Origin: Candidatus Gastranaerophilales bacterium | Lineage (GTDB): Bacteria > Cyanobacteriota > Vampirovibrionia > Gastranaerophilales > Gastranaerophilaceae | Reading direction: 5' to 3' | DNA: 64,000 bases | Assembly (NCBI GenBank): GCA_944322785.1 | Contig: CALUPW010000001.1 | Location: 124,001 to 188,000, forward strand | Part shown: piece by piece, positions 4,991 through 63,505 of the stretch | Layout of the letters: each line of letters starts with the position of its first letter | Numbering within the stretch: the first letter of the stretch is position 1 | Translations under genes and position numbers: made by a program | Notes under the pieces: model-generated | Database searches by the model: none | The model's input: the letters and a program-made list of their open reading frames with translations, nothing else | What the model was told of the DNA's origin: nothing

Positions 4991-5044
4991 ATGGTGAAAA
5001 AGCAGACTATGATTGAAATTCGGGGGGGGGGGGGCAACCCGTAA
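4991..5044 (+). CDS. Leader frame of poly-G prepilin locus 1 (out of phase)
   Basis: ATG at 4991 follows AGAGGAGCT with good spacing and opens MVKKQTMIEIR. It then enters a run of 13 G and stops at TAA 5042 after GGGGNP. With 12 G (or 15) the same start would read straight into the pilin frame that is open from the G tract to 6044. This is therefore probably the true start of the pilin gene in its alternative phase, not a separate gene. Confidence 0.6.
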   Translation: MVKKQTMIEIRGGGGNP

Positions 5045-6044
5045 AACAGCTCCTGACAGCGATTTAACAATTAGTCATTTTGTGAACAACGACAATTCGA
5101 GTCCAAAGACTCTTAAAAAGACATGTCTTAATTCTTTTGATGAAAAAATAGAGTGTCACCCTGAACTTGATTCAGGGTCTATTAAGATAAGAAAAGATTC
5201 CGGCTCGGAGGCCGGAATGACGAAGATGGCGTCTAACAACCTCCGTCCCGCAGTCCGGAATGACAAATCAGGGTGCAAAGCCGCCTTCACCATGGCAGAA
5301 GTTCTGATAACCCTCGGCATAATCGGTATAGTCGCCGCCATGACTTTGCCGACGATAATCAATCGCATACAGGAAAAAGTTCTTGAAGCACGCTTTCGAA
5401 AAGTTTACAATATTTTAAATGTTGCTTGTGAAAAGACAGTTGCGGATTTAGGTTATGTTCCAAGCTGTTATAGCTGGATTCCGGGAGAGCGTCCGTATCC
5501 TGATCTTGAGTGCGACAGACAGGAAAACGGTGACTGCAACTGGTATTATCCTGACGGTGATATGCCTTCTGATTACTACGGGCCTAGGAATGATAATGAC
5601 TGTCGTATATTTGAGGAAGCATTAATGAAAAATCTTAATGTAATCCAGCAGTGTCCAGATGCCGAAGATGACGGGTGCACTGTGCATTACAAAGGTTCCG
5701 ATACTATTATGAAAGATAATGATAATTCACTTTCGGATGAGGAGGTTATGGCAGCAACAGCAGGCACGCCTGCTTTTAGAGAGGAAAATCTGAATAAATT
5801 ACCGGCAATTGTTCTGATAGACGGGATAACTTTTATTGACCCTCAGGAATCCCGTTACATAAATACATTACCTATAATTGATATAAACGGTAAAAGAGGC
5901 CCGAATAAATGGGGATATGATTTGTTTGTGTTCGGAAGAGTCGGTTCTACTAAAAAGGGGATATATTATATAGCAGGTTCTCATCCGGTTGAAAAAGGCG
6001 GAAGAACGTGTCAAGAAATGATAAAAAAACTTTTGGAAAGATGA
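5013..6044 (+). CDS. Prepilin-like protein, locus 1, behind a poly-G tract
   Basis: The pilin core starts near 5280: KAAFTMAEVLITLGIIG is a class III-type prepilin N-terminus (cleavage before Phe, Glu at +5), though -1 is Ala rather than Gly. About 230 residues follow, with several Cys. The frame is open back to the G tract at 5022. The only in-phase start there is a TTG at 5013 with no Shine-Dalgarno. Between tract and core lie about 85 codons composed partly of dispersed palindromic repeats (CHPELDSGS, DSGSEAGMT), an odd leader for a pilin. The likely product is a type II secretion/type IV pilus pseudopilin. Expression probably depends on tract length. Confidence 0.75.
   Translation: MKFGGGGATRKTAPDSDLTISHFVNNDNSSPKTLKKTCLNSFDEKIECHPELDSGSIKIRKDSGSEAGMTKMASNNLRPAVRNDKSGCKAAFTMAEVLITLGIIGIVAAMTLPTIINRIQEKVLEARFRKVYNILNVACEKTVADLGYVPSCYSWIPGERPYPDLECDRQENGDCNWYYPDGDMPSDYYGPRNDNDCRIFEEALMKNLNVIQQCPDAEDDGCTVHYKGSDTIMKDNDNSLSDEEVMAATAGTPAFREENLNKLPAIVLIDGITFIDPQESRYINTLPIIDINGKRGPNKWGYDLFVFGRVGSTKKGIYYIAGSHPVEKGGRTCQEMIKKLLER
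5022..5034 (+). repeat. Homopolymeric G tract, 13 bases
   Basis: Thirteen consecutive G lie 11 codons inside the leader frame. The sequence after it (CAACCCGTAAAAC, CTCCTG, GCGATTTAAC, GACAATTC, AGTCCAAAGA) is shared with locus 3 at 62157 onward. Confidence 0.9.
5155..5222 (+). repeat. Dispersed palindromic repeats within the prepilin leader
   Basis: Two short palindromic units are adjacent: CACCCTGAACTTGATTCAGG (5157-5176) and CCGGCTCGGAGGCCGG (about 5202-5217). Related units occur at about 10488, 31838, 62371, 62595 and 62640. They resemble REP-type elements. Confidence 0.7.
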
Positions 6045-10328: not shown

Positions 10329-10557
10329 TTGTCAAGTCATGGATTTATTGTATTGCAGATACCCGTTACCATGAACTTGATTGACAAAGAAAATTTAAAA
10401 ACCGAAGATAGTTGCGGGGCTTTTATTTTTTGCAGCGCTGTATAGTGTGAAAGTTATCAATATTATAAAATCAAACCGGATAGACTCCGGCTCGGAGGCC
10501 GGAGTGACAATAATATCAAGATGTCGCATTCTTTCTCTCAAGATAGTATCGGAAAAT
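10329..10557. other. Intergenic stretch with one dispersed repeat
   Basis: No coding frame or RNA gene was recognised. CCGGCTCGGAGGCCGG near 10488-10503 is a copy of the palindromic repeat also found in prepilin loci 1 and 3. Confidence 0.6.
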
Positions 10558-50772: not shown

Positions 50773-51492
50773 TTAGAATTTTATGGGATAATCGTCTGGA
50801 ATTTCCCAGCCGTTGCAGTAAATCATATATGTACAATATACGGAGGATGGAACACCGCTTGTTTCTCTCTCATTTTTATAACAGTTTTTTATATAATTTT
50901 CACGATTTGTTTCAAGCTTTTGGCATGACCAATTAAGATACCATTGCGGTTCCAAACCCACTTTGCTGGAGGAATTACTTGCATTAACCGTAAATGCAAA
51001 GAGATTTCTTCCTTCAATAAATTCATCTTTTTTTCTTCTGTTTGTTGTTCCTACATATACTGTCATTACATAACCATTACTGTTTTCATTTACTCTTGGA
51101 TTGAATTCCAAAAACAATCCGTCGGCAAGAATAAATTGAGGTGTTTTATCCAAGCGATTCCTGAGATATGAGTCTGTTCCGTCTGCATATTTGACACCAA
51201 TCAAATCACGTCCGGTCCATGTATATTTAAGGTAAGGCTTTATATAAATATTAACAAATTCCAGAGCCTGCTGCCGGCCGGCCGAGGATGAGCCTGCTCC
51301 TTCTGTCGGATATGACCAGTAGGCAGCACTTTCATTATAAACTTCTGACATTTTGATTGTATTTGAAATAATTGAGAATGCTCTTTGAAGTTCTGTTGAA
51401 ACAACTCGTTTTTTATACGCACCCATTAGATTCGGGATTGTTAATGCAGCGACAATTCCTATAATCCCGAGGGTTATCAGCACCTCAGCCAT
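50773..51492 (-). CDS. Prepilin-like protein, locus 2, behind a poly-G tract
   Basis: From ATG 51492 the frame reads MAEVLITLGIIGIVAALTIP, then about 220 residues ending CNGWEIPDDYPIKF. This ATG lies inside the prepilin signal: upstream in frame are AYNSLLTGFT, giving a proper G|FTMAE cleavage site. That upstream part runs into the G tract and has no ATG, GTG or TTG in frame before a TAA. A complete prepilin can only be made from the ATG at 51568 if the tract changes by -1 or +2. Probably a type II/IV pseudopilin. Confidence 0.85.
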   Translation of the reverse strand: MAEVLITLGIIGIVAALTIPNLMGAYKKRVVSTELQRAFSIISNTIKMSEVYNESAAYWSYPTEGAGSSSAGRQQALEFVNIYIKPYLKYTWTGRDLIGVKYADGTDSYLRNRLDKTPQFILADGLFLEFNPRVNENSNGYVMTVYVGTTNRRKKDEFIEGRNLFAFTVNASNSSSKVGLEPQWYLNWSCQKLETNRENYIKNCYKNERETSGVPSSVYCTYMIYCNGWEIPDDYPIKF

Positions 51493-51514
51493 TGTAAATC
51501 CGGTCAGGAGAGAA

Positions 51515-51568
51515 TTATAAGCCCCCCCCCCCCTGGGTGATTTTTAAGCTATTATTGCGTTTTGCCAT
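51515..51568 (-). CDS. Leader frame of poly-G prepilin locus 2 (out of phase)
   Basis: ATG 51568 follows AAGGAGATGAAT. The frame reads MAKRNNSLKITQ, four Gly, Leu, then TAA. With 11 or 14 G it would continue GGG-AYNSLLTG|FTMAEVL, a basic leader peptide typical of prepilins. This is the clearest of the three loci. Confidence 0.65.
   Translation of the reverse strand: MAKRNNSLKITQGGGGL
51522..51533 (-). repeat. Homopolymeric G tract, 12 bases (C on the plus strand)
   Basis: Twelve consecutive C on the plus strand, after the twelfth codon (CAG) of the leader frame. Confidence 0.9.
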
Positions 51569-51592
51569 ATTCATCTCCTTTTTTATAATTCA

Positions 51593-62115: not shown

Positions 62116-62166
62116 ATGGAAACTATTGATATGACTGGATTACAGGGGGGGGGGGGCAACCCGTAA
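62116..62166 (+). CDS. Leader frame of poly-G prepilin locus 3 (out of phase)
   Basis: ATG 62116 follows AAAGGAGCTTGAAAAGC. The frame reads METIDMTGLQ, GGGGNP, then TAA. A tract of 11 or 14 G would shift into the frame GATRKT..., which stays open for about 180 codons to 62705. Confidence 0.5.
   Translation: METIDMTGLQGGGGNP
62145..62156 (+). repeat. Homopolymeric G tract, 12 bases
   Basis: Twelve G followed by CAACCCGTAAAAC, the same flank as at locus 1. Confidence 0.9.
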
Positions 62167-62370
62167 AACTGGCTCCTGCTGCGATTTAACCTTATGTCAT
62201 TCTGAGGATAAGGACAATTCAAGTCCAAAGATTGAAGAATTTTATAAAAAAATGAAACGTCATTCCGGACTGGCTGCAAAATCCGTTGAGACAGAGTCGA
62301 AACGAGATTTTATGCCCCTACCTTGTGACTCAGAATCTAATAATGAGCAATTCACACTTTTGTCCCCGAC

Positions 62371-62661
62371 GGTCATTCTGAACTTGATTCAGAATCTATC
62401 AATTTTGATAAAAAATATTTGGCACTTTTGGTGGCAAAAGTGCCTCAAAACCATCCGCCACGCTACGTTCACTAATAATCTGCACGGCTCAACCCGAAAG
62501 CCGGCAAACTCGCTAACGCTCAGACAAAGCCGGCTTCTGCCCTATGTTTCGCCAGCAATTATTGTTCACTCCGCTATTGCGGCAAAATCATTATGTCATT
62601 CAGAACTTGTTTCAGAATCTCTTAATACATCAACAGATTCCGGCTCGGAGGCCGGAATGAC
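62371..62661 (+). repeat. Cluster of dispersed palindromic repeats
   Basis: CATTCTGAACTTGATTCAG (about 62374), CATTCAGAACTTGTTTCAG (about 62598) and CCGGCTCGGAGGCCGG (about 62640) surround a GC-rich AGCCGGC/GCCGGCT palindrome near 62498-62533. They separate the poly-G leader from the pilin core. Confidence 0.65.
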
Positions 62662-62716
62662 GGGTACAGAGTCAAATATCATTCACCGCAAAGTCCGGAG
62701 TGACTAAGGAAACCGG

Positions 62717-63505
62717 ATGCCACGCACTCCGTCCCGTCACTCTGACGGAAGTCAGAGTCTATTAATGCCGGTTAATTTAATTTTGCACCTATTGCGGCAA
62801 AAGTGTCAAAAAGCCGCCTTCACCATGGCAGAAGTTTTAATAACCCTCGGTATAATCGGGATAGTCGCCGCCATGACTTTGCCGTCGTTAATCCAAAAAC
62901 ATCAAAAGAAAGTCCTCGTAACCAAACTTAAAAAAACATATTCAATTTTTAGTCAGGCATTAATCCAATCACAGCTTGTCAACGGCGAATTCAGCACATG
63001 GCCTGTTCGTGAAAATATAGTTCCGATAGAGTATTTTAACAGATATTACAAACCGTATTTTAACGGCTCACAATTTTGCATAAGCGCTGCAGCCTGCGGT
63101 TATAAAGCAGTAGGGGCAGGCTCAGACGCAAATAAGCCATGGAAAAATTTGAAGGGCAACACCATCGGGTGGTATCTGCTTTCAGGTTCTTCAAGAGTAT
63201 GTTTTTTATTAAATGACGGGTCTTTTGTTTTTCTGCCCAGAAATAGTAACGATTAAAACGGAGAACTTATTTATGTATCAACTATTTATATTGATATTAA
63301 CGGTCCGCTTTCCCCTAATGTTTTAGGTAAAGATGTTTTTCTATTTAAAATAGATAATAAAAAAGGTTTTATACCCTATTGTTATGACAGAACGCAGGAG
63401 CAAATAAACAACGGCTGCACCAAAAACAGTTCGGGGAATAACAACTGCTGTACGGCAAAGATAATGATGGACGGCTGGGAAATCAAAGACGATTATCCGT
63501 GGTAA
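62717..63505 (+). pseudogene. Prepilin-like gene, locus 3, with premature stops
   Basis: The core KAAFTMAEVLITLGIIGIVAA is present from about 62810. The frame stops at TAA 63254 after FLPRNSND, yet the same frame continues without interruption as NGELIYVSTIYIDINGP...GWEIKDDYPW to 63505, which is the typical C-terminus of this family (compare GWEIPDDYPIKF in locus 2). Another in-frame TAA at 62705 separates the core from the poly-G leader. Even with a corrected G tract, a full pilin would not be made. Likely a decaying gene, or two sequencing errors. Confidence 0.65.

Follow-up and report, generated by a model that had tools for sequence, protein, structure and literature searches.

A repertoire of pilin genes in an uncultured Candidatus Gastranaerophilales bacterium of the gut is likely to undergo slipped-strand phase variation by way of a swappable 5′ leader cassette. 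The window analysed here, a stretch of 64,000 nucleotides, carries three loci of this kind, and the second (locus 2) is one of about 38 prepilin genes with a G tract between the start codon and the cleavage site. The anatomy, the reading frames, the differences in tract length, the cassette swap and the excess of OFF copies were observed directly, and slippage during replication, switching within a population and an effect on pili are inferred. Slipped-strand mispairing in replication would alter the number of G residues; a tract matching the ON length modulo 3 (at locus 2, one of 11 or 14 G) would yield a full prepilin that the genome's single prepilin peptidase can cleave, and any other tract a peptide of about 17 residues. 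The switch would reside in a 5′ cassette made up of the promoter region, Shine-Dalgarno sequence, start codon, tract, CTCCT element and, often, a long leader extension, which recombination would shift among the pilin genes. With most copies OFF at any time, a silent repertoire would result, from which single-base slips would free individual pilins. The features of locus 2 are as follows.

51575..51580, minus strand: Shine-Dalgarno sequence AAGGAG, 6 nt 5′ of the start codon
51566..51568, minus strand: start codon (ATG) of the frame that the tract opens (MAKRNNSLKITQ...)
51522..51533, minus strand: 12-G tract inside the prepilin leader
51506..51511, minus strand: TCTCCT element, the complement of AGGAGA in the gene's own Shine-Dalgarno region
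51496..51498, minus strand: Phe codon, predicted first residue of the mature pilin (LLTG/FTMAE, the slash marking cleavage; TIGR02532 above cut-off)
50773..51498, minus strand: mature pilin coding sequence, 241 aa, without internal stop (PF20318, DUF6613, above cut-off)

The 12-G run separates the ribosome site and the ATG at 51568 from the cleavage site TG/FTMAE, and with the assembled 12 G residues the interval 51492-51568 (minus strand) is translated as MAKRNNSLKITQGGGGL, followed at once by a stop codon. A length scan gave ON lengths of 8, 11 and 14 and reproduced the leader proposed in a preliminary description of this DNA, the product with 11 or 14 G being MAKRNNSLKITQ-GGG-AYNSLLTG/FTMAEVLITLGIIG (mature part beginning FTMAEVLI). 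Read out from the upstream TAA, the pilin frame is KSPRGGGAYNSLLTG/FTMAEV and contains, as that description had stated, no ATG, GTG or TTG before the ATG at 51492, the sole alternative start in this stretch being a CTG that no Shine-Dalgarno sequence precedes. A start at 51492 would omit both the leader and the cleavage site, also as described, and the central claim that the tract, and not an internal start, must open the gene holds in that no canonical internal start yields a leader or cleavage site. The wording "ordinary basic" leader was accurate as to basic and only partly so as to ordinary, since the leader has 23 residues versus mostly 4-9 in tract-less prepilins of the same genome. A role for the tract as opener of the gene is supported; the sequence alone is compatible both with a silent 12-G allele and with its rescue by slippage in the transcript.

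The chance expectation for a G9 run is 0.03 per window, and three separate runs were found. One criterion of a contingency locus, a homopolymer within the coding region that sets the frame by its length, is met at locus 2, which judged by its sequence is a phase-variable prepilin in kind; that it switches within a population is inferred. The prepilin motif and hydrophobic helix scored 18.2 bits with TIGR02532 (cut-off 16.3) and 15.5 bits with PF07963, under the cut-off of 21.2, and the mature part falls into DUF6613, a family of unknown function. A single PF01478 match over the cut-off represents prepilin peptidase in the genome. The predicted product is a prepilin-like protein, for which pilus assembly is inferred only.

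The genome to which the window belongs (1.95 Mb, 18 contigs) contains 45 tracts of eight or more G, and 38 of these, lying among 74 N_methyl matches, are followed by a prepilin motif. Of its pilin genes, which number around 70, roughly half begin with a G run 10 to 15 long, and nearly all of these copies are a single G away from a readable length. The stretch from tract to cleavage site was open in 31 of the 38 loci, which had not been chosen for openness, and contained a stop in the other seven; the open stretches included leader extensions spanning 40 to 258 codons, against 6-10% stop codons in the other frames. Matching loci on named contigs belonged to Candidatus Gastranaerophilales, and the tract design was also present in other Gastranaerophilales genera, with none to 124 tracts of ten or more G per relative genome, mostly in the same family. 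Two further loci of the window, 1 (5022) and 3 (62145), belong to the same set of prepilin tracts as locus 2.

5022..5034, plus strand: locus 1, tract of 13 G (MVKKQTMIEIR-G..), exceeding the in-frame length by one
5286..6041, plus strand: locus 1, mature pilin (252 aa), sharing its frame with a post-tract leader extension of 83 open codons
62145..62156, plus strand: locus 3, tract of 12 G, exceeding the in-frame length by one

The 220-codon leader extension of locus 3 (window 62145-62821) has one in-frame stop on top of the frame offset, so that a single slip would not turn this locus on. The palindromic repeat GATTCCGGCTCGGAGGCCGGAATGAC occurs at window positions 5196-5221, 10483-10508 and 62636-62661, with copies placed within the leader extension of locus 1, where it is read in frame as DSGSEAGMT, and within that of locus 3; the extensions (up to 258 codons) therefore seem to be assembled from dispersed repeats.

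Tract phase was scored modulo 3 relative to the ON length at 139 loci of six genomes, a set selected for open frames, so that counts of leader stops in it, unlike the count over 38 loci, are biased. ON tracts numbered 19, tracts with one G too many (+1) 90 and tracts with one too few (-1) 30; the counts per genome (ON/+1/-1) were 1/24/1 in G000, 5/11/5 in G006, 5/21/3 in G008, 0/25/3 in G012, 3/0/18 in G034 and 5/9/0 in G082, all three phases being present within G006 and within G008. The +1 offset was commoner than with shuffled lengths in G000, G012 and G008 (permutation P ≤ 0.0002) and in these three genomes was kept more strictly than tract length; loci with an ON length of 10 mostly have 11 G, and loci of G000 with an ON length of 12 have 13 G. 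The absence of a fixed offset, which is expected of contingency loci without strictly defining them, is not met with 90 of 139 loci at +1, and it counts against slipped-strand variation that the phases are far from random, whereas a freely slipping tract should scatter. The OFF excess and the kept +1 offset go beyond textbook phase variation. Because a substitution at the tract edge shifts the length and the ON length together, part of the +1 offset may reflect descent, in which case slippage would be slow on this scale; descent and selection for the offset are not separable here. The sample holds one genome per species and hence gives no view of switching inside a population. Many of the sequences are metagenome assemblies, in which the tract is a majority consensus.

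The offset is also what would be expected if RNA polymerase or the ribosome slips, the one-G-off alleles being the normal, low-expressing form of the genes and the tract not primarily a replication switch. This reading, which is unlikely and weaker than phase variation but not excluded, draws support from the stricter keeping of offset than length in three genomes and from pilin frames that remain whole, and subject to purifying selection, even though the alleles as assembled are OFF. Its criterion, the same offset among relatives, is not met, since the own genus is mostly +1, G034 is -1 at 18 of 21 loci (with G10) and ON alleles occur in five of the six genomes. The opposite offset of G034 argues against one universal programmed frameshift; a universal +1 frameshift, for which the signal was strong in the own genome and G012, was ruled out by G034 and by the mixed G006, G008 and G082. 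Near-identical loci one G apart also speak against programmed slippage: a locus of G006 (L154, 13 G, OFF) and one of G008 (L211, 12 G, ON) match almost completely along some 340 bases, with only one G and a few substitutions between them. The contingency-locus criterion of ON/OFF length differences in near-identical copies is thereby met, between species and not within one strain. An eroded tract is, moreover, fixed ON and not one-off. In this tract, CAAGGGGGAGGGGCA (L303, own genome, contig C7, 170-190), the G run is broken by an A and locked at an 11-equivalent, leaving the frame open from ATG through leader to pilin. A second A-broken tract (L313, own genome, contig C2, 90-120) is a 12-equivalent in which the change created an ATG in the pilin frame, and both loci are consistent with a frame set by the tract.

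The 5′ cassette was probably acquired at locus 2 in this species, to judge from the comparison of syntenic copies. The locus 2 pilin lies between cysS and a SpoIID-like gene in five relatives, one of another genus, with 63-75% identity, and these orthologues are tract-less with a short leader that has its own upstream start and cleavage site, which points to gain of the cassette at locus 2; the region upstream of the cleavage site could not be convincingly aligned with the five. Exchange of cassettes is also seen between a locus of G006 (L155, 12 G) and one of G000 (L024, 13 G), in which the upstream region and leader are alike almost base for base and the match breaks off shortly after the cleavage site, inside the conserved N-terminal segment of the pilin, so that the same cassette stands before different pilins. 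Pilins 84-94% identical between species have, conversely, leaders of quite different lengths.

A reading of these genes as decaying, in which leader insertions and tracts would be signs of pilin copies that are silent, on their way out and maintained only by recombination as sequence donors, is improbable. It would accommodate the single ON locus among 26 scored in the own genome, the stops between tract and cleavage site at seven of 38 loci and the doubly OFF locus 3, but in most of the pilin genes an uninterrupted frame runs from tract to stop, long leader extensions included. The dN/dS of locus 2 against its orthologues (0.12-0.20) is like that among the tract-less orthologues themselves (0.12-0.28), which indicates a pilin that is not visibly decaying, although much of the divergence of locus 2 may be older than the cassette.

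An assembly artefact, in which the true alleles are ON and homopolymer miscalls shift them by one, would explain why offsets are uniform within a genome, but is very unlikely: +1 spans tract lengths of 10, 11, 12, 13 and 15, including short-read (NODE) contig assemblies, and the same assemblies hold ON or -1 loci, which a length-dependent error would not give. Initiation 3′ of an irrelevant tract, for example at the ATG in FTMAE, is hardly credible, for although some start codon lies between tract and cleavage site at 73 of 139 loci, the FTMAE codon is ATG at only 61 of the 139 and is therefore not a conserved start, its product would lack leader and cleavage site, and locus 2 and 33 other OFF loci (34 of 120 in six genomes) have no start in this stretch or upstream in its frame, so that at locus 2 internal initiation is contradicted unless the CTG without a Shine-Dalgarno sequence is used.

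Besides the tract, the cassette contains a short element that may pair with its own Shine-Dalgarno sequence. CTCC was present within 32 nt 3′ of the tract at 90 of 125 loci (own genus, four genomes, and G034), always 11-16 nt behind it, and in windows further downstream at 0-6%; it was lacking in the post-tract scan of G082. Conservation of the CTCCT element as a peptide was ruled out, as it falls in all three codon phases, and it is thus kept as a nucleotide sequence. The element complements the GGAG of its own gene and the next base matches too (GGAGC with GCTCC 54 times, GGAGA with TCTCC 11 times), with a within-genome permutation P of 0.003 for the covariation; when pairing was scored over two bases, the true register had a z of 4.6, with P 0.03 once similar loci were collapsed, and a register three bases off also gave some signal. 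Covariation support for the predicted pairing is accordingly graded as moderate. The mean pairing probability on folding was 0.66-0.91 in the own genus and only 0.19 in G034, and the folding of locus 2 was ambiguous, the G tract itself competing for the TCTCCT element. Among 18 scored control pilins without a long tract the element lay at most 75 nt from the start in one only, the eroded cassette L303. A role of the element in gating translation is an inference. It is possible, if doubtful, that the mobile cassette of Shine-Dalgarno sequence, start, G tract and anti-Shine-Dalgarno element makes constitutive pilin genes OFF by default, with a hairpin coupling initiation to passage of the tract, and that the one-G-off state is actively kept so that a single-base slip of DNA or RNA frees single pilins out of dozens.

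The G tract of Neisseria pilC sits in the signal-peptide region. This in-frame tract of 9-20 G switches a pilus protein ON and OFF (PMC5953494), and as here a poly-G in the reading frame toggles the protein; PilC, however, is pilus-associated and present in one or two copies, whereas here the tract lies in the prepilin leaders of dozens of pilin-type subunits. Neisseria pilE/pilS likewise combines a large silent pilin stock with recombination between copies (PMC5953494), but here each copy seems to own a start and upstream region, and it is the 5′ cassette and not the variable 3′ part that is exchanged. In Listeria inlA a poly-A tract near the start codon leads, when out of frame, to a truncated short peptide (PMC2831843). 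The 5′-end homopolymer and the short peptide are shared with the present loci, but inlA is a single gene with poly-A, without a paralogous family or a paired Shine-Dalgarno element. Shigella mxiE and Thermus dnaX are transcriptional slippage genes with A/T runs whose offset is conserved among orthologues; they resemble the present loci in having an out-of-frame homopolymer ahead of the main frame, and differ in that the runs here are of G and the offset varies between genera. No report of such a pilin switch in this lineage was found in an open-access literature search, and what sets locus 2 apart from known phase variation is a cassette found across the family, together with the prevalence of OFF copies, the retained offset and the element complementary to the Shine-Dalgarno sequence. 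Gastranaerophilales are little studied, non-photosynthetic relatives of cyanobacteria that are mostly known from metagenomes. If phase variation of the pilins is correct, this lineage of gut commensals would possess a very large family of phase-variable proteins, which could underlie differences between strains in host or phage interactions. The genes look like a large reserve of surface fibres, most of it turned off, and the consistent one-G-off state and the Shine-Dalgarno-pairing element are concrete, testable oddities.

Some tracts lie outside prepilin genes. A tract of 12 G with CAACCCGTAAAAC behind it, on the minus strand near 2050 (L026, own genome C3:164849), stands in the frame of an apparent membrane protein that is not a pilin, and the tract unit may on this evidence also occur outside pilins. 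G026, of another genus, has many G10 tracts (L250-L254), several in a 20 kb cluster, then followed by CAATGCG or TAAACCGCTCA, and no prepilin loci were found at those of its tracts that were read. Loss of mismatch repair as a source of tract instability was ruled out, MutS being found in all 36 genomes searched. In three species a G-tract locus lies directly downstream of mutS, a curious neighbour for a mismatch-sensitive tract.

Own genome C4:139249-139976: mutS-adjacent G-tract locus
G006 C8:27478-28183: mutS-adjacent G-tract locus
G012 C1:335219-336009: mutS-adjacent G-tract locus
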